Below, in pieces: positions 25,436-64,000 of a stretch of DNA of 64,000 nt (position 1 is the stretch's first letter; the number at the start of each line of letters is the position of its first letter). A program made the position numbers and the translations under genes. Below the pieces are notes generated by a model, which was not told the DNA's origin, searched no databases, and saw only the letters and a list, made by a program, of their open reading frames with translations. This stretch comes from an uncultured delta proteobacterium (lineage in GTDB: Bacteria; Myxococcota_A; UBA9160; JAFDET01), in contig CAMYLJ010000030.1 in assembly GCA_947259215.1 (NCBI GenBank), forward strand, positions 1-64,000. The letters run 5' to 3'.

Positions 25436-26674
25436 CTAGGCGCCGAAGGCCCCGCGGATGCGGGTCACGGCCTCGGCCACGTTCTCACGCGAGTTGAAGG
25501 CCGAGATGCGGATGTAGCCCTCGCCGGCGGGCCCGAAGCCCGCGCCCGGCGTCCCCACCACGTGGGCCTCGCCCAGCAGGCGATCGAAGCACTCCCAGGA
25601 GCCCATCCCCGTGGGGGTTCGCATCCAGATGTAGGGCGCGTGGACGCCGCCGAAGAGCGTGAAGCCCGCCTCCCCGAGGCCTTCGCGCAGAACCCGGGCG
25701 TTCTCCAGGTAGTAGGCCACCTGCTCGCCGGTCTGCTTGCGGCCCCCGGGCGAGTAGACGGCCTCGGCCGCGCGTTGGATGGGGTAGGGCACGGCGTTGA
25801 ACTTGGTGGCGTGGCGCCGGGCCCAGAGCTGGCGCAGCGGCACGCGCCCGCCGCTCGCGTCGCGGCCGCTCGCCTCCGCCGGCACCACGGAGTAGGCGCA
25901 GCGCAGCCCCGTGAAGCCCGCCCGCTTCGAGAAGCTCCGCATCTCGACCGCGCACTCCCGGGCCCCGGGGATCTCGAAGATCGAGCGGGGCAGGGCGGGG
26001 TCGCTGATGAAGGCGTCGTAGGCGGCGTCGAATACCAGCACCGCGTCGTGCTCGCGCGCATAGGCGACCCAGCGCTCCAGGTTGTCGCGGTCCGCCACGG
26101 CGCCGGTCGGGTTGTTGGGCGAGCAGAGATAGACCAGGTCCACGGGCTCGGAGGGCGGGTCCGGGGTGAAGCCGTTGGCCTCGGTCGCCGGCAGGTAGAG
26201 CATGCCCGCGTAGTGGCCGGACTCCTGCATGGCGCCCGTGCGCCCGGCCATCACGTTGGTGTCCACGTACACGGGGTAGACCGGGTCGGTGACGGCGACG
26301 CGACAGCTCGTGTCGAAGATCTCCTGGAAGTTCCCGCTGTCCTGCTTGCTGCCGTCGGAGACGAAGATCTCGTCCCGGGCGATCTCGATGCCCCGGCTCG
26401 CGTAGTCGTGCTCGCGGATGGCGTCCAGCAGGAAGTCGTAGCCGCCGGAGTCGGGGCCGTAGCCGCGGAAGCCGTCGGCGGTGCCCATCTCGTCGGCGGC
26501 GGCGCGCAGGGCGTCCACCACCGCGGGCGCCAGCGGCAGGGTGACGTCGCCGATGCCGAGCCGGATGATCTTCGCCTCCGGGTTGGCTTCGGCGACGGCG
26601 GCCACGCGTCGGCCGATCTCGGGGAAGAGGTAGCCCGCGTGGAGCTTCCGATAATTCTCGTTGATCCGCGCCAT
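25436..26674 (-). CDS. dapL: LL-diaminopimelate aminotransferase DapL
   Basis: 412 residues, the standard DapL length. The start [20 protein letters not shown] is diagnostic for the family, as are [24 protein letters not shown] and [10 protein letters not shown]. The PLP lysine is K250 in [10 protein letters not shown]. DapL converts tetrahydrodipicolinate directly to LL-diaminopimelate in lysine and peptidoglycan synthesis, bypassing DapC/D/E. No Shine-Dalgarno sequence lies close to the ATG; a GGAGG occurs about 22 bases upstream at the foot of a hairpin. It is upstream of the tandem terminator hairpins and stands alone. Confidence 0.95.
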
Positions 26675-27059: not shown

Positions 27060-28676
27060 CTAAGGATCGATCAAGACCCCGGGGTTCAGTACGCCCGCGG
27101 GATCCAGCTCGCGCTTCGTCGCCTTCAGCGCCCGGGCGAAGGGCTCGGGTCGCTGGCGGTCGTAGCCCGGGCGGTGATCGCGACCGACGGCGTGGTGGTG
27201 GGTGATGGTGCCGCCGGCGCCCACCACGGCCTCCATGGCGGCGGCCTTGAGCTCGTCCCACTGCTCGAGCTCGCCGCCGCGGCGTCCCGGGGCCAGGATG
27301 CTGTAGTAGGGCGCCGGCCCGTCGGGGTAGGCGTGGGTGAAGCGGCAGGCCACCTGGCCCGCGCCGCAGACCCGCTTCACGGCGTCGCCGACGGCGCCCA
27401 TCACGTGGCCGTGAAAGTCCTCGAAGCGGTCCCACGGGATCGCGGTCTCGAAGGTCTCGGTCACCACCGAGAGTCGTGCCAGGGCGTCCCGCAGGTAGGG
27501 CGCTTGGAGGAACGCCTTGCGCCAGGCGCCGGCGGCGCCCTCGCGGCTGGCTTCCGCATCCCTGCGGGTCTTCAGCGCCGCGTCGGGGACGTGGCCGCCG
27601 TGGTCGCGGCAGAGCTCCGCGGCGCGCGCCATCCAGGCGTCGAGGTCGTGGTCCGCCGACTCGAAGCCGACGATCAGCACCGCGTGGCTGCCGTCGCCGG
27701 CGCCCGAGGTCTGCGCTTCGGTCGGATCGAGCAGCCGGCAGTTGGCCGGGAAGAGCCCGGCCTGGGACAGGGCGCGCACGCAGCCCGCGCCGCGCAGGAA
27801 GCCGTCGTCACCCTCGAAGGCCAGCGAGGCCGAGGCCCGGCGGGTGGGGCGGTCCTGGAGCCGCATCCAGGCCTCGCTGATGACGCCGAGGATGCCTTCC
27901 GAGCCGGCCAGCAGCCGGTCGGGACTCGGCCCGGCGCCCGAGCCCGGCAGCCGCCGCGTCTCGATGACCCCGGATGGCGTCACGGCGCGCAGGCCTTCGA
28001 CGAAGTCCTCGATGTGGGTGTAGAGCGTGGCGTAGTGGCCGCCCGAGCGGGTGGCGATCCAGCCACCGAGGGTGGAGAACTCGAAGGACTGGGGGAAGTG
28101 GCGCAGGGTCAGGCCGTGGGGACGAAGCTGGTCCTCCAGCGCCGGGCCGAAGACACCCGCCTGGATGCGCGCGGCGCGGGAGGTGCGGTCGATCTCCAGC
28201 ACCCGATCGAGCTTCGACAGGTCGAGCGACACGGCGCCGGCGTAGCCTGCGGGCAGCCGGGCTTCGACGCCGCCCACCACGCTCGAGCCGCCGCCGTACG
28301 GGATCGCGGCGGCGCGCGCGTCGGCGCACCAGTCGAGGATCGAAACCAGCTCGGCCTCGTCGCGCGGGAAGGCCACCCGGTCCGGCGCGGCGGCGAAGTC
28401 GCGGCGCAGGCCGCGCACCACGTCGCGGAAGGCCTTGCCGTAGGTGTGGCCCGCGCGCTGGTACGGGTCGTCGGAGCAGGCATGCGCCAGGCTGCCGGGC
28501 GGCGCGATGCGCGGCGCGGGGAGCTCGATCTCGGCGAGGGTCGGCGGGGCGAGCGGTGCGGGGATCTCACGGCCGAAGCGCTGGGCCAGGGTGCGGGCGA
28601 TCCCGGCCAGGGCCGCGTCGCCGGGGCCGGCGCCCTCGAGGCCCCAGCCCCAGAAGCTGCGCCGGGCCTCGCTCAC
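27060..28676 (-). CDS. FAD-linked oxidase, alkyl-DHAP synthase-like
   Basis: 538 residues from a GTG that overlaps the preceding F420-type gene (GTGA). A PCMH-type FAD-binding domain includes PYGGGSSVVGG and LGGWIATRSGGHYATLYTHIEDFVEGL. The C-terminal half carries TITHHHAVGRDH, equivalent to the His-rich active-site loop of alkyldihydroxyacetonephosphate synthase, and ends in LDPAGVLNPGVLIDP. In ether-lipid synthesis this enzyme swaps a fatty acyl for a fatty alcohol; bacterial homologues may instead be D-lactate- or glycolate-type oxidases. The upstream LLM partner hints at another redox role. It is followed by the repeat-rich intergenic region. Confidence 0.82.
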   Translation of the reverse strand: MSEARRSFWGWGLEGAGPGDAALAGIARTLAQRFGREIPAPLAPPTLAEIELPAPRIAPPGSLAHACSDDPYQRAGHTYGKAFRDVVRGLRRDFAAAPDRVAFPRDEAELVSILDWCADARAAAIPYGGGSSVVGGVEARLPAGYAGAVSLDLSKLDRVLEIDRTSRAARIQAGVFGPALEDQLRPHGLTLRHFPQSFEFSTLGGWIATRSGGHYATLYTHIEDFVEGLRAVTPSGVIETRRLPGSGAGPSPDRLLAGSEGILGVISEAWMRLQDRPTRRASASLAFEGDDGFLRGAGCVRALSQAGLFPANCRLLDPTEAQTSGAGDGSHAVLIVGFESADHDLDAWMARAAELCRDHGGHVPDAALKTRRDAEASREGAAGAWRKAFLQAPYLRDALARLSVVTETFETAIPWDRFEDFHGHVMGAVGDAVKRVCGAGQVACRFTHAYPDGPAPYYSILAPGRRGGELEQWDELKAAAMEAVVGAGGTITHHHAVGRDHRPGYDRQRPEPFARALKATKRELDPAGVLNPGVLIDP

Positions 28677-29554
28677 GAGGCGGCCGGCGCCAGCAGCTCG
28701 AGCAGCTCCATGTGCGGCACCGGCAGCCCGTCGGGATGCAGCGGCTGGATGCAGACGTGGTCGGCGCCCGCGTCCCAGTGCGCCTGGATGCGCGCGCGGA
28801 TGGCGTCCTCGTCGCCCCAGGCGACGATCGCGTCCACCAGCTTGTCCGAGCAGTCGCCGCTCCAGTCGCTCTCGTCGTAGCCGAGCCAGCGCAGGTTGTT
28901 CTGGTAGTTGGGCAGGCCCGCGTAGATCTTCATGGCCTGGCGCGCCACCGAGCGCGCCTGGGACGGGTCGGTGCAGAGCAGCACCTTCTGCTCCGGTGCC
29001 AGGATCGCGTCGGGCCCGAGGATCTCCCGTGCGCGCGCCGTGTGCTCCGGCGGCACGAAGTAGGGGTGCGCGCCGTCGGCCTTCTCCGCCGACAGGCGCA
29101 GCATGTTCTGGCGCAGGGCGCCGATCAGCACGGGGCCGCGCTCCTTGGCCGGGACCGCGCGGTAGACGGCGCGCTCCATCGCCTCCAGGTAGGCGCGCAT
29201 GGTGGCGACGGGCTTCGGGCTGTACTCGTGCTTGCGCACGCCGGCCACCAGGTGCGAGTGCGACACGCCGAGCCCGAGCAGGAAGCGGCCGCCCGAGAGG
29301 TCCGAGAGCGCTTCCAGCCCATGACGGGTCGTCACCGCGTCGCGCGCGTAGATGTTCGCGATGCCGGTGCACAGGTTCAGCCGCGTGGTCTGGCCGGCCA
29401 GGAAGCCCAGCAGGGCGAAGGGCTCGCGGCCGACCGCCTCCGGCACCCAGAGCGCCGAGTAGCCGAGCTCCTCGATCCGCTTCGTCGCGGCCACCGCGTC
29501 CGAGGGGGGCAGGGCATCGAAGAACGTCCACACGCCGAGTCGTCCGAGATTCAT
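28673..29554 (-). CDS. F420-dependent LLM-class oxidoreductase (TIGR03620-like)
   Basis: 293 residues, luciferase-like TIM barrel. MNLGRLGVWTFFDALPPSDAV, LGYSALWVPEAVGREPFALL, TGIANIYARDAVTTRHG and GGRFLLGLGVSH match the MSMEG_4141-type group of F420-using LLM proteins. These typically oxidise alcohols or reduce enones with coenzyme F420; the cofactor assignment rests on family resemblance and no F420 synthesis gene is in the window. The gene is coupled to the AGPS-like flavoprotein by a 4-bp overlap and is divergent (25 bp) from the pentaheme cytochrome gene. Confidence 0.82.
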   Translation of the reverse strand: MNLGRLGVWTFFDALPPSDAVAATKRIEELGYSALWVPEAVGREPFALLGFLAGQTTRLNLCTGIANIYARDAVTTRHGLEALSDLSGGRFLLGLGVSHSHLVAGVRKHEYSPKPVATMRAYLEAMERAVYRAVPAKERGPVLIGALRQNMLRLSAEKADGAHPYFVPPEHTARAREILGPDAILAPEQKVLLCTDPSQARSVARQAMKIYAGLPNYQNNLRWLGYDESDWSGDCSDKLVDAIVAWGDEDAIRARIQAHWDAGADHVCIQPLHPDGLPVPHMELLELLAPAAS

Positions 29555-29579
29555 GCCGGGCAGGGTACCATCGCCCCTG

Positions 29580-30179
29580 ATGCGACGCGCGGGGATGCTG
29601 GCAGTGGCGGCGGGGATCGTGCTGGGGCCCGTGGGCTGGCTGGTGAGCGACCGGTTGGAGGCGCGCAACGACTTCTGCAACGCCTGCCATCTGCCGTCGG
29701 GCGTGGCCCTGCACCGCGAGCTGCGCGACGAGTTCGACGCCCGCCCCGCCGCCTCGCTGGCCGCGCTCCACGCCGCGGCGGCCGTCGAGGGCCGCGAGGA
29801 CGCGGCCTTCCGCTGCATCGACTGCCACCAGGGCAGCGGCGCGGTCGGCCGCGTCCGGGTCAAGGCCCTCGCTGCCAAGGACGCCTTCTGGTACGTGGTC
29901 GGTCGCTTCGAGGAGCCCGACGGCATGCGCTGGCCGCTCTGGGACGCGGACTGCCGCAAGTGTCACCCGGGCTTCGCCTCGGAAGGCGACCTGGACGGGC
30001 CGGGGCCGGAGGCCTTCCACGCCCGGCCGGTGCACAACCGGAAACTCGGCGTGGGCTGTGTAGAATGTCACCTCGTGCACGGGCCGGGCGGCAACCCGGA
30101 CGCCTACTTCGTGCATCCGGAGCCGGTCCGGGCCCAGTGCGCACGCTGTCACTCGGAGTTCGAGGAGGAGTACGAATGA
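29580..30179 (+). CDS. Membrane-anchored pentaheme cytochrome c (NapC/NirT-like)
   Basis: 199 residues. One N-terminal helix (residues 3-23) anchors it to the inner membrane. Five haem c motifs follow: CNACH (33-37), CIDCH, CRKCH, CVECH and CARCH, each with possible distal His ligands in between. NapC/NirT proteins take electrons from quinol and pass them to periplasmic partners; the usual form has four haems, so this is an enlarged or cytochrome-c3-like member. The next gene overlaps by 4 bp (ATGA) and encodes a monohaem protein, a natural redox partner. Confidence 0.85.
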   Translation: MRRAGMLAVAAGIVLGPVGWLVSDRLEARNDFCNACHLPSGVALHRELRDEFDARPAASLAALHAAAAVEGREDAAFRCIDCHQGSGAVGRVRVKALAAKDAFWYVVGRFEEPDGMRWPLWDADCRKCHPGFASEGDLDGPGPEAFHARPVHNRKLGVGCVECHLVHGPGGNPDAYFVHPEPVRAQCARCHSEFEEEYE

Positions 30180-30985
30180 TCGCTCGATCCGCCGTCGCCG
30201 TGTTCGCCGCCGCGGGCCTCGCCACTGGCTCCGGGGCGTACCCGGGCGGGACGCCCGACTACCAGACCGACGTGGCGCCTTTCTGCGCGGGCTGTCACTC
30301 CTCGCTCGACGCAGAAGCACTGGCCGGAGCTCCGGAGGCGCGGGTGCAGAAGGAGCTGGCCGAGAACAAGCACTTGGCCCAGATCCGCGAGCCTGGAGAG
30401 CGGAGCGGCTACGCCAAGCTGTCGGAGTCCGACCGCTCCGAGCTGATCAAGCATATCCAGGCCGTCGACGCGAACGCCGAGGTCAGCCTGGCGGCGCCGG
30501 ACAAGGTGGCACCCGGGGCGGCCTTCACCGTCACGGTGGAGGTGAAGGGCGGATCCGGGCCGGTGGTGGGCGTCGGGCTGGTGGATCGCGCCCATCGCTG
30601 GTGGGCGCGGCCGGCTGCGTCGGCGGGCTGGCAGGTGGTGGCCGCGCCCGAGATCGTGGGGCCCGACGGCAATCCCCAGGACACGTGGCTCGGCAAGCGC
30701 GCCAAGGACGCCGGGCGGAGTCTCTCGTTCGTCAATGTCATGGGCGTGAAGTCGGACGCGGTCGCGGGGACCTGGTCCACCGCGAAGGTGCGCTTCAAGC
30801 TGCGAGCGCCGCTCGAGCCGGGCTCGGTTCCCCTGGCGGCGGTCTTTCTGTACGGCACCGAGAAGGCATCGCCCCTCGGTACCGTGACGAACGCCGTCGG
30901 GCGCAAGAGTCCGGTCGGCGGCTTCACGGGCGCTTCCGGGCGGGTCCGCTTCTCGGCGCTGAAGCAGATCGCGGTCGGTCCGTAG
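30176..30985 (+). CDS. Exported monohaem c protein with Ig/Reeler-like domain
   Basis: 269 residues with a short signal peptide (residues 1-20). A single CAGCH haem motif at about residue 39 is followed by a charged helical segment. From about residue 100 a beta-rich domain begins with SLAAPDKVAPGAAFTVTVEVKGG, the opening strand pattern of Ig-like or Reeler domains. No second haem is seen; a His or Met further along would be the other ligand. Coupled to the pentaheme gene, it probably accepts or donates electrons in the periplasm. I do not recognise a named family for the full length. Confidence 0.72.
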   Translation: MIARSAVAVFAAAGLATGSGAYPGGTPDYQTDVAPFCAGCHSSLDAEALAGAPEARVQKELAENKHLAQIREPGERSGYAKLSESDRSELIKHIQAVDANAEVSLAAPDKVAPGAAFTVTVEVKGGSGPVVGVGLVDRAHRWWARPAASAGWQVVAAPEIVGPDGNPQDTWLGKRAKDAGRSLSFVNVMGVKSDAVAGTWSTAKVRFKLRAPLEPGSVPLAAVFLYGTEKASPLGTVTNAVGRKSPVGGFTGASGRVRFSALKQIAVGP

Positions 30986-30998
30986 CCGCGACGCCCGC

Positions 30999-32465
30999 TC
31001 AGTGTCGGGCGAACTCGCCGGCGCGCAGGCGCGCCAGGTAGGAGTCCAGGTCGGCCTTGATGCGGCCCGACAGCAGGATCACGCCCGGGATGTTGGGGAA
31101 CGCCATCCCCAGGATCATCAAGTCCGAGAACTCGATCACCTGGGCCAGGGGCGAGACGGCGCCGAACCAGGCGAAGAGCAGGAAGAGCGCCTTGTAGTAG
31201 TTGCTGGTGCGCGCTCCGAACAGGAAGCTCCAGCAGCGCTCGCCGTAGTAGCTCCACGAGATCATGGTGCTGAAGGCGAAGAGCGTGGCCGTGATGGCCA
31301 ACAGCACCGGGAACCACGGGAAGACGCTGGCGAAGGCCTTCGCGGTCAGCTCGATCCCCGCCGTGCTGCCGTCGTTCACGTAGGCTCCGGTCACGACGAT
31401 CACGAGCCCGGTGGTGCTGCACACGATCACCGTGTCGATGAAGGGCTCGAGCAGCGCCACCATCCCCTCGCGCACCGGCTCGCGGGTGATGGCGGCCGAG
31501 TGGGCGATCGGCGCCGACCCGATGCCCGCCTCGTTGCTGAAGGCCGCGCGCCGCAGGCCCTGCACCAGCACCCCCATGAATCCACCCCAGGCGGCCGCCT
31601 CGGGCCGGAAGGCGCTGGTCAGGATGGTCGCGAAGGCGCCGCCGATCTGGTCGGCGTGGGTGAGGACGATCCACAGCCCGCAGAGCAGGTAGAGGCCGCA
31701 CATGAAGGGCACCAGCGCGGCGGCCACGTGTCCGATGCGGCGGATGCCGCCGATGATCACCACGCCGACGGCGGCGGCGAGGAGCGCGCCGAAGACCGCC
31801 GCCGCCAGCCTCGCCTCTAAGCCGGTGACCATCCCGACCATCTTCCAGGCCTGGTTGGACTGGAACATGTTGCCGCCGCCGAAGCTCCCGCCGATGCACA
31901 TCAGCGCGAACGCCACGGCCAGGAAGCGGCCGAGGCGCGGCCGTCCGATCTCGGCCAGCCCGCGCTCCAGGTAGTGCATGGGGCCGCCCGACACGCCGCC
32001 GTTGCCGTCGAGCACGCGGTACTTCTGGCCGAGGGTGCACTCGGCGAACTTCGAGCTCATGCCGAGCAGACCCATCACGACCATCCAGAAGACCGCTCCT
32101 GGACCGCCCTTGGACACGGCCACCGCCACGCCGGCGATGTTCCCGAGGCCCACGGTGGCCGAGAGCGCCGCCGACAACGCCTCGAAGTGGCTGATCTCGC
32201 CCGGATCGTCCGGGCTCGAGTAGCGGCCGCGCACGCAGTCGATGGCGTGGCGGAAGGCGCGGACGTTCACGAACTGGAAGCGCAGGGTGAAGAAGAGGGC
32301 ACCCAGCACGAGCCAGAGGACGACGATCGGGAGCTCGATCCCCTTGTCGTCGCCCACGTTGTCCCAGAACCAGACGTCCCAGAAGAAGACGGCGCCGAGC
32401 GGCGTCACCACCCAGCGCCCGAAGAGCGCCTCCAGCCAGTCCAGGAACGTGAGGAACGTCTCCAT
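30999..32465 (-). CDS. Alanine/glycine:cation symporter (AGCS family)
   Basis: 488 residues with about ten to eleven membrane segments. ALSATVGLGNIAGVAVAVSKGGPGAVFWM is split over the family signature region, GGPMHYLERGL and SNEAGIGSAPIAHSAA are further AGCS hallmarks, and the C-terminal FAWFGAVSPLAQVIEFSDLMIL completes the transporter. It imports alanine, glycine or a related amino acid with Na+ or H+. The N-terminus has an unusual Trp/Asp-rich stretch (FFWDVWFWDNVGDDKG) before the second helix. Divergent from the thiolase gene by 99 bp. Confidence 0.92.
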   Translation of the reverse strand: METFLTFLDWLEALFGRWVVTPLGAVFFWDVWFWDNVGDDKGIELPIVVLWLVLGALFFTLRFQFVNVRAFRHAIDCVRGRYSSPDDPGEISHFEALSAALSATVGLGNIAGVAVAVSKGGPGAVFWMVVMGLLGMSSKFAECTLGQKYRVLDGNGGVSGGPMHYLERGLAEIGRPRLGRFLAVAFALMCIGGSFGGGNMFQSNQAWKMVGMVTGLEARLAAAVFGALLAAAVGVVIIGGIRRIGHVAAALVPFMCGLYLLCGLWIVLTHADQIGGAFATILTSAFRPEAAAWGGFMGVLVQGLRRAAFSNEAGIGSAPIAHSAAITREPVREGMVALLEPFIDTVIVCSTTGLVIVVTGAYVNDGSTAGIELTAKAFASVFPWFPVLLAITATLFAFSTMISWSYYGERCWSFLFGARTSNYYKALFLLFAWFGAVSPLAQVIEFSDLMILGMAFPNIPGVILLSGRIKADLDSYLARLRAGEFARH

Positions 32466-32564: not shown

Positions 32565-33758
32565 ATGCGCGAAGCCGTCATCGTCGCGAACCGCCGGACC
32601 CCGCTCGCCAAGTCCTTCCGTGGATCGTTCAACATGACCCGCCCGGACGACCAGGTGGCCCACGCCATCCGGGCCTGCCTGGGCGACGTGCCGGCTCTCG
32701 ACCCCGAGGAGATCCAGGACGTCATCATGGGCTGCGGCCTGCCCGAGGGCCCCCAGGGCCAGAACGTGGCGCGGATCGCCATCCTGAACGCCGGGCTGCC
32801 GGCGTCGGTGTCCGCGACCACCGTGAACCGCTTCTGCTCGTCCGGTCTCCAGGCCATCGCCATGGCGGCCCAGCACGTGATCGTGAACGGAGCCGACGCG
32901 GTGCTGGCTGGCGGCGTCGAGTCCATCACGATGGTCCAGAACGACAAGATGCGGCTCGAGGGGATGGTGAACCCGAAGGTCCAGGAGGAGTGGCCGGGCC
33001 TCTACATGGGCATGGGGCAGACCGCCGAGATCGTGGCCGACCGCTACGGGATCTCGCGCGAGGACCAGGACGCCTACGCGCTGAGGTCGCAGCAGCTCAC
33101 CGCCGCCTGGCAGGAGAAGGGCTGGGACCGCGAGTGCATCGCGCCCATGACCGTGACGCGGATGACGAAGACCCAGGACGGCGAGCAGAAGCTGGAGGAG
33201 GGCGCCGTCGTCGAGCGGGACGAGTGCAATCGTCCGAATACGACGCTCGAGGGGCTCGCGAAGCTGCCGCCCGCCTTCAACCCCGACGGCGGCACGGTCA
33301 CGGCGGGCAACGCCTCCCAGCTCTCGGACGGCGCGTCCGCGACCCTGGTGATGTCGTCCGAGCGGGCGAAGCAGCTGGGGATCGAGCCCATGGGCATCTT
33401 CCGCGGCTTCCAGGTGGCCGGCTGCCGGCCTGAAGAGATGGGGATCGGTCCCGTCTTCGCCGTGCCGAAGCTGCTGAAGCAGACGGGCAAGACCCTGGAC
33501 GACATCGACGTGGTGGAGCTGAACGAGGCCTTCGCGTCCCAGCTCCTCTACTGCCAGCGGGAGCTCGGGATCCCCGACCAGAAGCTCAACCCGATCGGCG
33601 GCTCGATCTCCATCGGCCACCCCTACGGCATGACCGGGTCGCGCATGACGGGCCAGCTGCTGCGCCAGCTGGCGCGCACCGGCGGTCGCTTCGGGATCGT
33701 CACGATGTGCGTCGGCGGCGGCATGGGCGCCGCGGGGCTCTTCGAGGCCGCCTCCTGA
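32565..33758 (+). CDS. Thiolase, acetyl-CoA C-acyltransferase (FadA-like)
   Basis: 397 residues. The acyl-accepting Cys91 is in NRFCSSGLQA; NEAFASQ, the His motif SIGHPYGMTGSRM and the second catalytic Cys in CVGGGMG complete the active site. It cleaves 3-ketoacyl-CoA in beta-oxidation, or condenses acyl-CoAs in reverse. An AAAAGGAGAA site precedes the ATG. The stop overlaps the start of the acyl-CoA synthetase, so degradation to acyl-CoA and ATP-yielding release of the acid may be coupled. Confidence 0.93.
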   Translation: MREAVIVANRRTPLAKSFRGSFNMTRPDDQVAHAIRACLGDVPALDPEEIQDVIMGCGLPEGPQGQNVARIAILNAGLPASVSATTVNRFCSSGLQAIAMAAQHVIVNGADAVLAGGVESITMVQNDKMRLEGMVNPKVQEEWPGLYMGMGQTAEIVADRYGISREDQDAYALRSQQLTAAWQEKGWDRECIAPMTVTRMTKTQDGEQKLEEGAVVERDECNRPNTTLEGLAKLPPAFNPDGGTVTAGNASQLSDGASATLVMSSERAKQLGIEPMGIFRGFQVAGCRPEEMGIGPVFAVPKLLKQTGKTLDDIDVVELNEAFASQLLYCQRELGIPDQKLNPIGGSISIGHPYGMTGSRMTGQLLRQLARTGGRFGIVTMCVGGGMGAAGLFEAAS

Positions 33759-35908
33759 CCACGCTCTCCGAACGCGCCTCCAAGGCGCTCTGCTCGGAGT
33801 ACGGCATTCCGCTGGCGCGGGAGGAGGCAGCGCGCGACGCGGACGCGGCGGCCGCCGCCGCTGCCCGCGTCGGCTTCCCGGTCGCGCTCAAGCTCTGCGG
33901 CGACGGGATCGCGCACAAGACCGAGCGTGGGCTCGTGCGCCTCGGGCTCGCCGACGCGGACGCGGTGCGCGCGGCGGCGACCGGGCTGCTGGCCGCGGCG
34001 CGCCCCGAGGACGGCGAGGTGGAGCTGCTCGTGGCCGAGATGGTGCGCGGCGCCCGCGAGCTGATCGCCGGGGTGAGCCGCGATCCCCAGTTCGGCCCCT
34101 GCGTGGTGCTCGGCCTCGGCGGCATCCTGACCGAGGCCGTGGGTGACGCGGTCTCCGCCGTGGCGCCCCTCGAGCGCCGGGACGCCCTGCGCATGCTCGA
34201 TGGCCTCGGCGCGCAGGTGCTGCTCGGCCCTTTCCGGGGCGAGCCGCCGGTGGACCGAGAGGCCGTGGCCGAGCTGCTGGTCGCCCTCGGCCGGCTGGCG
34301 AGCGAGCGTGCGGACGTCGCCAGCGTGGACCTGAACCCGCTGATCCTGCGCGACGGTGCGCCGGTAGCGGTGGACGCGCTGGTCGAGATCCGCGAGGACG
34401 AAGCCGCGCCGGCGGAGCGCGAACGCGCCACCTTCGATCCCGCCGCGGTGCGCGAGCGCTTCCAGCCGCTCTTCCACCCGCGCGGGATCGTGGTGGCCGG
34501 CGTCTCCGGGCATCCAGGGAAGTTCGGCTTCGTGACCTTCCACAACCTGCTCGCCTGCGGCTATCGCGGCGAGATCTTCCCGCTGAAGCCGGACGGCGCC
34601 GAGGTGCTCGGGCGCAAGACCTACCGCGACGTGTCGGAGATCCCCGACGGCGCGGCGGACCTGGTCTTCGTGTGCACCCCGCTCTCGGTGAACCTGCCGC
34701 TGCTCGAAGCCTGCGCGGCCAAGGGCGTGCGCGCGGCCTTCGTGGCCAGCGGGGGGTACGGCGAGGCTGGGGACGAGGGCCGCGCCCGCGAGCGCGAGCT
34801 GGTCGAGACGGCCGACCGCCTGGGCATGCTGGTGGCGGGTCCCAACGGACAGGGCGTGATCTCCACCGCCGAGAGCATGTGCGCCCAGATCGTGGCGCCG
34901 TACCCGCCGCCCGGCCGCATCTCGGTCGCCAGCCAGAGCGGGAACCTGGTGTCCGCCTACCTGAACTACGCCGTCGAGTCCGGCGTGGGGGTGCGCGTCG
35001 CCATCTCCGCGGGGAACTCCGCGCAGACCAGCCTGGCCGACTACCTGGAGTACTTCGCCGCCGACGCCGAGACCGGCGTGGCGCTCACCTACCTGGAGGG
35101 CGTGGCGGACGGCGCGCGCTTCCTCGACGCCGCACGGGTGCTGACCGCCGCCAAGCCGCTGGTGCTGGTGAAGGGCGGTGTCGCCTCCGAGGGTCAGCGC
35201 GCCGCGGCGAGCCACACGGGATCCCTGGCGACCGACGACCGGGTCTTCGACGGCGTCTGCCGCCAGCTCGGCATCGCGCGCGCGCCGACGGTGGAGCACG
35301 CCTTCGAGTGGGCGGCGACCTTCGCGACCCAGCCGCTGCCGCGCGGCCGGCGGGTGGTGGTCTTCACCACGGCGGGCGGCTGGGGGGTGCTGGCCGCCGA
35401 CGCCTGCGTCGCCGCCGGCCTCGAGCTGGCGCCGCTGCCCGACGCCGTGCGCGCCGCCATCGACGGCATGGTCCCGGCGCGCTGGAGCCGGAGCAACCCG
35501 GTCGACCTGGCGGGCGGGGAGACCCGGGACACGGTGCCCGAGGTGCTGGACCTGATCTGCGGCCACCCGGACGTGGACGCGGTGATCCACCTGGGGATCG
35601 GGATCCAGGCCGGACAAGCGCAGCTCTTCCGCAGCGGCGAGTTCTTCCCGGACCACGGCCTGGAGCGGATCGCCGGCTTCCACGAGCGCCAGGACCGGCG
35701 CTACGCCGAGGTGGCGCGCGAGGTCTCCGAGCGCCACGCCAAGCCCGTCCTCACCTGCACCGAGCTCGCCGTCACCGACCGCCACTACGGCAACGCCGGC
35801 CCGCAAGGCGTGAAGGAAGAAGGCCGCTTCTGCTACCCCAGCGCCCACCGCGCCATCTCCGCTCTCGCGGCCCTCGTCCGCTACGCCGAGTTCAGAAACG
35901 GCCGCTAG
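33755..35908 (+). CDS. ADP-forming acyl-CoA synthetase (fused ATP-grasp and CoA-binding subunits)
   Basis: About 717 residues. An ATP-grasp domain comes first (EYGIPLAREE, FPVALKLCGDGIAHKTERG), then the CoA-binding and CoA-ligase domains (PRGIVVAGVSGHPGKFG, SVASQSGNLVSAYLNY). The phosphohistidine motif ASHTGSLATDD is intact. The enzyme interconverts acyl-CoA plus ADP and Pi with acid plus ATP. The start is unusual: the family N-terminus begins at TTLSERASKALCSEYG, exactly after a CTG in a CTGA overlap with the thiolase stop, with GAGG seven bases upstream. The only in-frame standard codon is a GTG at 33707, which would add an Arg-rich 16-residue leader. Confidence 0.9.
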   Translation: MTTLSERASKALCSEYGIPLAREEAARDADAAAAAAARVGFPVALKLCGDGIAHKTERGLVRLGLADADAVRAAATGLLAAARPEDGEVELLVAEMVRGARELIAGVSRDPQFGPCVVLGLGGILTEAVGDAVSAVAPLERRDALRMLDGLGAQVLLGPFRGEPPVDREAVAELLVALGRLASERADVASVDLNPLILRDGAPVAVDALVEIREDEAAPAERERATFDPAAVRERFQPLFHPRGIVVAGVSGHPGKFGFVTFHNLLACGYRGEIFPLKPDGAEVLGRKTYRDVSEIPDGAADLVFVCTPLSVNLPLLEACAAKGVRAAFVASGGYGEAGDEGRARERELVETADRLGMLVAGPNGQGVISTAESMCAQIVAPYPPPGRISVASQSGNLVSAYLNYAVESGVGVRVAISAGNSAQTSLADYLEYFAADAETGVALTYLEGVADGARFLDAARVLTAAKPLVLVKGGVASEGQRAAASHTGSLATDDRVFDGVCRQLGIARAPTVEHAFEWAATFATQPLPRGRRVVVFTTAGGWGVLAADACVAAGLELAPLPDAVRAAIDGMVPARWSRSNPVDLAGGETRDTVPEVLDLICGHPDVDAVIHLGIGIQAGQAQLFRSGEFFPDHGLERIAGFHERQDRRYAEVAREVSERHAKPVLTCTELAVTDRHYGNAGPQGVKEEGRFCYPSAHRAISALAALVRYAEFRNGR

Positions 35909-61257: not shown

Positions 61258-62088
61258 ATGCTCCGCTCCCCCTTCCGTCGCGTCGTCTGGCTCGTTCCCG
61301 CCCTTGCGCTCGCCACCGCTGCGGTCCTCGCGTGGCCCGGATCCGATCGGGCCCGAGCCGCGGGAGAGGACGCTGCGCACGCCGGTCCCGCCCTGGTCGC
61401 CGGCAGCATCTGCGAGGCCCAGGAACTCAAGGCCCTGGCCGTCGAGCGACCGGACCTTCACGTCGAGATCCCGCCGGAGTTCGACAAGGCGTATCCGTCG
61501 CTTTCCGCATGCGTGTCCCACGACCTCGCCAGCGACCCCGACCTGCCCGGTCCGCTCCAGCCGATCCCCTTCAGCCACGCTCACCACGCCGGCGAGTACG
61601 AGATCTCCTGCCAGTACTGCCACGCGGGCGTCGGTCGTTCCCCGGCCGCCGGCGTCCCGTCCGTCGAGCTCTGCATGGGTTGTCACGCGCAGTTCTCGCC
61701 CGACTACGACCAGGAGTTCAGTGGAATCCGCACGCTGAAGGAGCACTGGGGCCACAGCTACGTCGAGCAGGACGGCAAGTGGAAGATCCAGCCGCGGGAT
61801 CCCGAGAAGGCCCGGACCATCGAGTGGCAGCAGATCCATCGCGTCCCGGAACACGTGCAGTTCAAGCACAATCGGCATGTCGCCGCCGGCGTCGACTGCA
61901 ACACCTGTCACGGCAACCTGCGCAGCCAGGAGCCCGTCTACGTGGAGGAGCTGCACAAGCTCTACCTGGTGCCGGACACGCGCTGGTGGCAGTACGGCCT
62001 GCCCACCCAGAAGCTGGAGATGGGCTGGTGCATCCAGTGCCACCGTCAGAACGGCGCCTCCCAGGACTGCCTCACCTGCCACTACTAG
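61258..62088 (+). CDS. actA: Alternative complex III subunit ActA (pentaheme cytochrome c)
   Basis: 276 residues from this ATG; a GTG at 61234 would add eight residues before the same helix. One N-terminal membrane helix (about residues 8-24) is followed by five haem motifs: CQYCH, CMGCH, CNTCH, CIQCH and CLTCH, the last at the very C-terminus. Five haems plus direct linkage to an ActB-like gene identify ActA of alternative complex III, a quinol:cytochrome c (or oxidase) oxidoreductase. It sits on the periplasmic side. ActB starts 20 bp downstream. Confidence 0.93.
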   Translation: MLRSPFRRVVWLVPALALATAAVLAWPGSDRARAAGEDAAHAGPALVAGSICEAQELKALAVERPDLHVEIPPEFDKAYPSLSACVSHDLASDPDLPGPLQPIPFSHAHHAGEYEISCQYCHAGVGRSPAAGVPSVELCMGCHAQFSPDYDQEFSGIRTLKEHWGHSYVEQDGKWKIQPRDPEKARTIEWQQIHRVPEHVQFKHNRHVAAGVDCNTCHGNLRSQEPVYVEELHKLYLVPDTRWWQYGLPTQKLEMGWCIQCHRQNGASQDCLTCHY

Positions 62089-62108
62089 GAACCTAGGAAC
62101 GACCCCCG

Positions 62109-64000
62109 ATGTCTGAACTCGACCGTCGAGACTTCCTGAAGCTGGTGGGCGTGGGCGCTGGAGCGGCCGCGGCCGCCGGCTGTTCGGATCCGGTCGAGAA
62201 GCTCATCCCCTACGTGGTGCAGCCGGAGGAGATCACTCCCGGCATCCCCGTGGTGTACGCCTCCACGTGTCGCGAGTGCGCGGCGGGCTGCGGCCTGCAC
62301 GTCAAGACCCGCGAGGCCCGCCCGATCAAGCTGGAAGGCAACCCCGACCACCCGGTCAACGCCGGCACGCTCTGCGCCCGAGGGCAGGCGGGGCTGGGCC
62401 GGACCTATCATCCGGACCGCTACGCGGGTCCGATGGAGCGCCAGGGAGACCAGCTGGTCGCCACCTCGTGGGACCAGGGCATCGCGAAGCTGGCCGAGAA
62501 GGTCCGCGCCAATCCGGGCGGCGTCTATGTGCTGGGCGGCGACGTCGGGCCGACGGCCAACGCCCTCGTCGACGGCTGGCTGGAGAGCGTCGGCGCCGGC
62601 GGGCGCGTGATCTACGACCCGCTGGCTCCGGAGGCCCTGCGCGAGGCCGCGCAGGGCCTCTACGGCGAGGCGCTGCTGCCCCGCTTCGACCTCTCGAGCG
62701 CGGACCTGGTGATCGACTTCGGCTCGGACTTCCTGGAGACCGGCCCGTCTCCGACGGAGCACGCGCGGCAGTGGGCCCAGGCACGCGACCTGGCCCGAGG
62801 GCAGGGCGGCGCGCGGCTCGTCTACGTCGGCCCGCGCCAGTCCATGACCGCGTCGAACGCGGACGAGTGGATTCCGGCCAAGGCCGGCAGCGAGGGCCTG
62901 GTGGCCCTGGCGGTCGCGCGCGCGGCCTGGGAGGCCGGAGGCCGTGGGGCGGACCTGGCGCCCTATCTGGCCGACGCCTCCGTGGAGGACCTGGCCACGA
63001 CCGCGGGCGTCGACGCCGCAACGCTCCGAAGCCTGGGACGCGCCGTGTCCGCCGCCGAGCGCGCCCTGGCCCTGCCGCCGGGCGCCGCGCTGGCCAGCCG
63101 GCGGGCCGTGGCGTCGGCCGCCGCGACGCTGCTGGTGAACGAGGCCGCCGGGTCGTTGGGAACGGCGGTGACGCTCGAGCCCGAGGCGCCCGGGCGCGCC
63201 CGCGCCAGTCACCGCGAGGTCCTGCGGCTGGTGGAGGCCATGAAGTCCGGCAAGGTGTCGGTGCTGATCGTGCACGACGCGAACCCGCTGTACTCGCTGT
63301 CGGAGACCACCGGCTTCGGCGAGGCGCTCGGCCAGGTGGACTTCGTGGTGGCGACCGCCTCGCTGCGCGACGAGACCTCCGAACGCGCGCACCTCGTGCT
63401 CCCGGACCACACCCCGCTCGAGTCGTGGGGCGACGCGGAGCCGCGGCCGGGCGTCCGCTCCCTGCTCCAGCCGACGGTGCGTCCGCTCCAGGACACCCGC
63501 GCGCTGGTGGACACGCTCCACGACACGGGTCGTGCCGTCGGCGCCTCCGTGCCGGCGGGGAGCTTCCGCACCCAGCTCGAGAGCGCCTGGGGCGCCGACC
63601 TGCGCCAGGATCTGGCCCGCGGCGGCCGCTTCGGGCCCACGCCCGCGTCGCGCCCGGCGCTGTCGGGTGCTGCGCTCAAGGTCGCGGAGCCGGCGTTGGA
63701 AGGGGAGGGCGAACTGACCCTCCTGGCGTTCCCGCATCCGCTGCTCTACGACGGCACCGGCGCCGCGCTGCCGTGGCTGCAGGAGATCCCGGACCCGGTC
63801 ACCAAGGTGGCCTGGCAGTCGTGGGCGGAGATCAGCAACGCCACCGCCGAGCGCCTGGGCGTCGAGGCGGGCGACGTGGTGCGGGTCGCGACCGGAGCGG
63901 GCGCGCTCGAGCTTCCCGCGCTGCCCCGTGGCGGCATCCGCGACGACGTGGTCGCCATTCCCCTGGGCCAGGGGCACACGGTCGGCCACTTCGCGTCGCT
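62109..64000 (+). CDS. actB: Alternative complex III subunit ActB (molybdopterin-like/iron-sulfur), truncated by window edge
   Basis: About 630 residues are visible and the frame is open at 64000. The Tat-like motif RRDFLKLVG with a following Ala-rich stretch and Cys (AAGCSD) marks export across the inner membrane. STCRECAAGCGLHVK and GTLCARGQAG resemble the iron-sulfur motif of MopB enzymes, and later blocks (HDANPLYSL, LVLPDHTPLESWGDAEPRPG) are typical of ActB, whose molybdopterin domain lacks cofactor. ActB1 is usually fused to an ActB2 part with three [4Fe-4S] and one [3Fe-4S] clusters; that part would lie beyond the window. actC-F should follow. Confidence 0.92.
   Translation, partial: MSELDRRDFLKLVGVGAGAAAAAGCSDPVEKLIPYVVQPEEITPGIPVVYASTCRECAAGCGLHVKTREARPIKLEGNPDHPVNAGTLCARGQAGLGRTYHPDRYAGPMERQGDQLVATSWDQGIAKLAEKVRANPGGVYVLGGDVGPTANALVDGWLESVGAGGRVIYDPLAPEALREAAQGLYGEALLPRFDLSSADLVIDFGSDFLETGPSPTEHARQWAQARDLARGQGGARLVYVGPRQSMTASNADEWIPAKAGSEGLVALAVARAAWEAGGRGADLAPYLADASVEDLATTAGVDAATLRSLGRAVSAAERALALPPGAALASRRAVASAAATLLVNEAAGSLGTAVTLEPEAPGRARASHREVLRLVEAMKSGKVSVLIVHDANPLYSLSETTGFGEALGQVDFVVATASLRDETSERAHLVLPDHTPLESWGDAEPRPGVRSLLQPTVRPLQDTRALVDTLHDTGRAVGASVPAGSFRTQLESAWGADLRQDLARGGRFGPTPASRPALSGAALKVAEPALEGEGELTLLAFPHPLLYDGTGAALPWLQEIPDPVTKVAWQSWAEISNATAERLGVEAGDVVRVATGAGALELPALPRGGIRDDVVAIPLGQGHTVGHFAS

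Follow-up and report, generated by a model that had tools for sequence, protein, structure and literature searches.

Whether neighboring genes for redox proteins form one electron pathway or merely lie side by side is a question raised by positions 27060–30985 of the DNA stretch analysed here, 64,000 nucleotides of contig CAMYLJ010000030.1 from an uncultured delta proteobacterium (assembly GCA_947259215.1; hereafter the window). Two pairs of genes diverge there. On the minus strand, the gene for an AGPS-like FAD-linked oxidase (27060–28676, GTG start, 538 amino acids; PF01565 and PF02913), also termed P0001, overlaps by 4 bp that of a TIGR03620-family F420-type LLM oxidoreductase (28673–29554, 293 amino acids; TIGR03620 and PF00296). 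On the plus strand, the gene for c5, a predicted membrane-anchored, five-haem NapC/NirT-like cytochrome (29580–30179, 199 amino acids; PF03264, five CXXCH), overlaps by 4 bp that for c1, a predicted secreted one-haem protein with a C-terminal immunoglobulin (Ig)-like domain (30176–30985, 269 amino acids; one CXXCH, AlphaFold model). The sequence between the pairs (29555–29579) is 25 bp long if c5 starts at 29580, which agrees with the MRRA start in L040 and L041; alternative in-frame ATGs lie at 29553 and 29595. A first-pass annotation had described these four genes, both overlaps and the short divergent gap correctly, and had gone on to propose co-regulation and electron flow from F420 or FAD chemistry to periplasmic haems. 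The reading favored here, with a probability of roughly 0.6, is that two functionally separate modules stand back to back, a c5-c1 relay and a cytosolic F420/flavin enzyme pair, with no direct electron transfer between them.

Distribution of the two gene pairs

The enzyme half and the c5-c1 half are separable, and each comes and goes without the other. The order was sampled through 79 genomes, metagenome-assembled genomes (MAGs) labelled Myxococcota or Deltaproteobacteria, in which contig ends give false absences. LLM was present in 67 of them (E 1e-40), AGPS-like in 48 (E 1e-60), c5 in 38 (E 1e-20) and c1 in 42 (E 1e-10). Co-occurrence was assessed by Fisher tests on 2 × 2 tables of all 79 genomes, uncorrected for kinship. 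The c5 table omits G002, G056 and G064, where the sole match is paralogue-type or partial, the AGPS-like table keeps 40 of the 48 genomes (match identity at least 62%), and the LLM table, taken from the E 1e-40 list, includes paralogues outside the block. Within each half the association is strong: c5 occurs in 35/42 genomes with c1 and in 0/37 without it (p = 8e-16), and LLM in 39/40 genomes with AGPS-like and in 28/39 without it (p = 0.0015). Across the halves, c1 and AGPS-like are uncorrelated (22/42 against 18/37, p = 0.82), and an LLM homologue is kept in 28/37 genomes of the order without c1. LLM directly adjoins the symporter gene of the block described below, with no cytochrome between, in G002, G004, G007, G011, G044, and G046–G053. 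A tree of dapL from 45 genomes requires a minimum of 5 changes for c1, 8 for AGPS-like and 2 for LLM.

Sister family f12 (11 genomes) has c1 in 5 genomes, with c5 directly adjoining in 5/5 and no AGPS or LLM there. AGPS-like genes occur in 7 of its genomes (E 1e-100) and LLM genes in 9 (E 1e-80); 0/16 loci hold two of dapL, AGPS, LLM, c5, c1, symporter, and ligase, several of these loci being near contig ends. One weak thiolase match and one exonuclease match were seen at f12 loci, both kilobases away.

More distantly, 24 of 63 c1 loci in public contigs lack an adjoining dapL, AGPS, LLM, symporter or ligase; these 24 lie outside the order and f12 as far as matching allowed. A five-haem c5 adjoins c1 in 7 of them, with record titles, which for MAGs may misname the organism, of Deltaproteobacteria (L187, L191), Nitrospirae (L195), Eisenbacteria (L196, L208), Tectomicrobia (L209), and Proteobacteria (L213). 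These pairs rest on tblastn, and gene calls there are rough owing to shadow frames in GC-rich DNA. The order is swapped to c1-c5 in L191, L209 and L213, and the persistence of adjacency in spite of it suggests a functional tie that may have survived rearrangement. In L209, LLM is also matched weakly twice, at 29% identity, roughly 3.5 kb away. The first-pass annotation had named independent conservation of the halves as an objection to its electron-flow proposal, and such independence is what was seen (p = 0.82; c5-c1 standing alone in 5/5 cases in f12 and in 7/24 distant loci), so that a transfer of electrons from the F420/FAD enzymes to the haems is not supported.

The conserved block and possible shared regulation

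Gene order was tallied at 84 loci (the window and 83 others), with no locus from the order genomes G005, G008, G020–G023, G030, G064, and G067, nor from G045. A single block emerges, dapL-AGPS-LLM followed by c5-c1-symporter-acyl-CoA ligase, with the cytochromes and the ligase divergent from their neighbors. In the window its left end is an LL-diaminopimelate aminotransferase gene (dapL, 25436–26674, minus strand; TIGR03542, 556.2 bits, cut-off 364.7). To the right lie a gene for an AGCS-family Na+/amino-acid symporter (30999–32465, minus strand; TIGR00835, 401.6 bits; PF01235) and, at the conserved end of the block, one for an ADP-forming acyl-CoA ligase-like protein (33707–35908, plus strand; PF13549, PF13607, PF13380). 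An acyl-CoA thiolase gene between these two (32565–33758, plus strand; TIGR01930, 428.7 bits) is found besides in a few relatives only. Neighbors less than 600 bp apart were c5-c1 in 33 genomes, ligase-symporter in 32, LLM-AGPS in 28, AGPS-dapL in 26, LLM-c5 in 25, c1-symporter in 19, and LLM-c1 in 8. The four-gene arrangement is not due to chance, because it is kept in dozens of genomes, and the divergent layout is old. The conserved synteny that the first-pass annotation had set as a check is therefore present within the order: of the 42 c1-bearing genomes, 32 have LLM next to c5 or c1. G032 has a second copy of the block (L148, G032:C61) with LLM, c1, symporter, and ligase, and without c5.

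Such a layout invites the explanation that one promoter or operator serves both divergent units, which would then respond together, say to a redox or growth condition, with no exchange of electrons. Co-regulation from one small promoter region, as first proposed, is possible: divergence is conserved in many families of the order, and the gap measures 25 bp here and 59–191 bp in 22 relatives. The regulatory sites themselves did not appear. A promoter scan of 29400–29750 found no sigma-70-like site (GC-rich organisms may use other promoters), and no 6-mer or 8-mer was common to more of the 22 relatives' gaps than in shuffles, which is a weak test. Moreover, each half occurs without the other. 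The neighbors dapL, symporter and ligase persist to a similar degree, so the layout may reflect gene-block inertia. Shared regulation is considered unlikely.

The cytochrome pair

In c5, CXXCH motifs lie at residues 33, 79, 125, 160, and 187, and PF03264 is matched with 34.9 bits (gathering cut-off 24.1); among its homologues, L195 passes this cut-off (27.5) and L208 falls below it (21.4). The most hydrophobic 19-residue stretch begins at residue 4, as in a membrane anchor, and the model has a helix at 2–28 with a pLDDT of 81–87 over its first 20 residues. His 45, 64, 147, 152, and 167, all outside the haem motifs, are invariant in 29/29 aligned c5 sequences, paralogues included; these putative ligands would suffice for the five haems. 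K95 and D101 are invariant in the same alignment and may correspond to the quinol-site Lys and Asp of NrfH and CymA. A sequence search of solved structures with P0003 gave no match, and the c5 profile matched multihaem cytochromes weakly, the best being nitrite reductase 6v0a (2.2e-4). NrfH proper is not indicated, as TIGR03153 scores 30.5 bits against a cut-off of 134.2 and the neighbors are c1 and LLM rather than nrfA. The label "quinol-type pentaheme cytochrome" in the first-pass annotation thus stands as to five haem motifs and family, and quinol oxidation is suggested by the family.

The same genome encodes a second five-haem c5-type paralogue (L039 8374–9063, G000:C14), 51% identical and with no adjoining c1. 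Similar matches without adjoining c1 also occur in G002, G003, G029, G034, G035, G038, G056, and G063. Single in-frame stops lie within the c5 matches of G018, G038, G039, and G040, some perhaps upstream of the true start.

c1 has one CXXCH, at residue 37. In an alignment of 23 sequences (A1), C37, C40, and H41 are invariant and H66 nearly so. Its AlphaFold model has a mean pLDDT of 87.5, with an Ig-like fold at residues 96–269. A fold search returned generic Ig and adhesin matches (best Z 8.7), with no Reeler, choice_anch_V or haem-binding family among the matches listed, and its profile gave nothing convincing against solved structures. The best named match, choice_anch_V (NF041895) over residues 93–139, reaches 27.9 bits, below the cut-off of 42. 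Of the earlier description as an "Ig/Reeler-like monohaem protein", the single haem motif and the Ig-like fold hold, and likeness to Reeler is not established.

As a working model, c5 would be held in the inner membrane by its N-terminal helix and would draw electrons from quinol in the manner of NapC/NrfH-type proteins. Electrons would travel along its five haems and then to c1, and c1, secreted with one haem and an Ig-like domain, would deliver them to a periplasmic partner. It is a tentative proposal, somewhat short of even odds, that c5-c1 constitutes an undescribed two-gene respiratory module in several phyla, with c1 docking to or reducing a periplasmic or cell-surface acceptor; among the titles listed in literature searches, none points to a c5-c1 pair. 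This uncharacterised pair, common to loci in several phyla, is the more interesting object here.

The enzyme pair

The second module would consist of a cytosolic F420-type LLM hydride transferase and the AGPS-like flavoprotein. Both enzymes lack leaders and look cytosolic, and the cytochromes would be periplasmic. The LLM protein matches PF00296 and, with 294.5 bits (cut-off 219.8), TIGR03620, a subfamily for which no function was found, the term being absent from the papers listed on F420 LLM enzymes. PMC8498797 gives no assigned role for many LLHT enzymes. There are 22 LLM-type matches across the genome at E 0.001. Single in-frame stops lie within the LLM matches of G024, G028, and G063, and in G002, where the cytochromes are absent, a sulfotransferase-like gene (L042 8221–8787, G002:C226) stands between AGPS-like and LLM.

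The F420 biosynthesis genes, another check set by the first-pass annotation, are all present above curated cut-offs: cofD (306.9 bits), cofC (141.3), cofE (255.9), cofG (394.1), and cofH (466.9). cofD-cofC-cofE form a run on contig C1 (L045 9244–11566), and cofG and cofH are adjacent on contig C4 (L249). The cof genes C, D, E, G, and H were each checked singly because PF01933 also matches Escherichia coli and so is not proof of F420 synthesis alone. The lack of F420 synthesis, which had been named as an objection to the electron-flow idea, is not what was found, and use of F420 by the LLM enzyme is plausible.

In P0001 both PF02913 and PF01565 are matched. Its top solved-structure match is Dictyostelium AGPS 2uuu (E 2.5e-60), followed at a distance by the next non-AGPS structure, 9qgz (4.1e-25). 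R316, R398, Y459, and HHH 495–497 align with R419, R515, Y578, and H615–617 of 4bby (positions hand-counted from the alignment), residues that we take to be catalytic. P0001 accordingly has the two-domain FAD fold and AGPS-type residues, with AGPS as the closest solved family, and its locus lacks the ether-lipid gene context of a fatty acyl reductase (FAR) and an acyltransferase. Contig C43 of the same genome encodes a true AGPS that is 30% identical to P0001; it matches 4bby with 589 bits, whereas P0001 reaches 187. Because this separate AGPS stands in an ether-lipid operon and the two are only 30% identical, P0001 is likely a divergent paralogue with another substrate, probably not acyl-dihydroxyacetone phosphate. 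At C43 a run of three genes encodes AGPS, a FAR/acyltransferase fusion, and an epimerase-type protein (L279 4406–9928). The FAR assignment rests on the domain fusion and the operon, as PF07993 matches all 14 controls. Given this operon, the lineage may produce ether lipids.

Could P0001 instead be a 2-hydroxyacid-type dehydrogenase feeding the quinone pool, with c5-c1 as one outlet of that pool and the link an indirect one through quinol? It does match D-lactate and D-2-hydroxyglutarate dehydrogenase structures, and the GlcD model with 124.8 bits, far under the cut-off of 567.9. AGPS structures, however, match it much better, the AGPS-type residues listed above are kept, and c1 and AGPS-like are uncorrelated in their presence, which makes this alternative improbable. 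A single pathway of all four genes, carrying electrons from F420 or FAD chemistry to periplasmic haems, is likewise improbable: the genome makes F420, c5 is NapC/NirT-like, and the genes are adjacent, but c1 and AGPS-like occur independently, c5-c1 pairs exist elsewhere without LLM or AGPS and enzyme halves without cytochromes, the compartments differ, and AGPS chemistry, an exchange of acyl and alkyl chains, is redox-neutral overall.

Points against two separate modules

Several observations weigh against two separate modules. Adjacency of LLM to c5 or c1 in 32/42 genomes would be strikingly persistent if the genes had nothing to do with each other, and a common regulation or function could lie behind it. 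The co-occurrence of c1 with LLM is borderline in the full set (39/42 against 28/37, p = 0.057); in the 37 best genomes the figures are 19/22 against 12/15 (p = 0.67). A kinship-aware test of the c1/AGPS pair gave just 3 independent pairs on starred branches, a small sample. c5 yielded no confident AlphaFold model (pLDDT 51.8, for which it was left out of the fold search), so that the relay is proposed from family and motif only. Finally, 17/24 distant c1 loci have no c5 within the flanks examined, and an adjacent c5 is not always needed.

The locus carries a general caution: divergent neighbors are not necessarily one electron pathway, and an order-wide layout can hide two modules that are lost and gained separately. 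It also draws attention to an AGPS-like/F420-LLM enzyme pair without an assigned substrate in an uncultured lineage carrying F420 genes. Elsewhere in the window, 61258–63998 holds a gene for a five-CXXCH QrcA-like protein followed by one for a QrcB-like molybdopterin protein, both under the Qrc cut-offs; the two may belong to a complex of the Qrc/alternative-complex-III type that continues past the window edge.

Comparison with known systems

The LLM protein resembles the F420-type LLM oxidoreductases of TIGR03620 in passing the curated cut-off and in having a host with F420 genes. According to PMC9131029, the AGPS reaction exchanges an acyl for an alkyl chain, and the C43 run matches in composition the Myxococcus MXAN_1676-1674 ether-lipid operon described there. 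P0001 is like AGPS (MXAN_1676, 2uuu, 4bby) in both domains, the HHH motif, and the aligned Tyr and Arg, and differs in its lower score to 4bby (187 bits) and in having no FAR/acyltransferase neighbor. c1 shares with choice-of-anchor V/Reeler-like secreted proteins an Ig-like fold and the weak match at 93–139, which is below the cut-off. According to PMC12285233, the NrfH/NapC family comprises quinol oxidases that are anchored in the membrane and carry four or five haems. c5 is like NapC/NirT/NrfH proteins in that a membrane helix at its N-terminus precedes a multihaem domain and in passing the Pfam cut-off; it differs in that its C-terminal half resembles doubled-CXXCH/c7 repeats and in being paired with c1 in place of NrfA or NapA.

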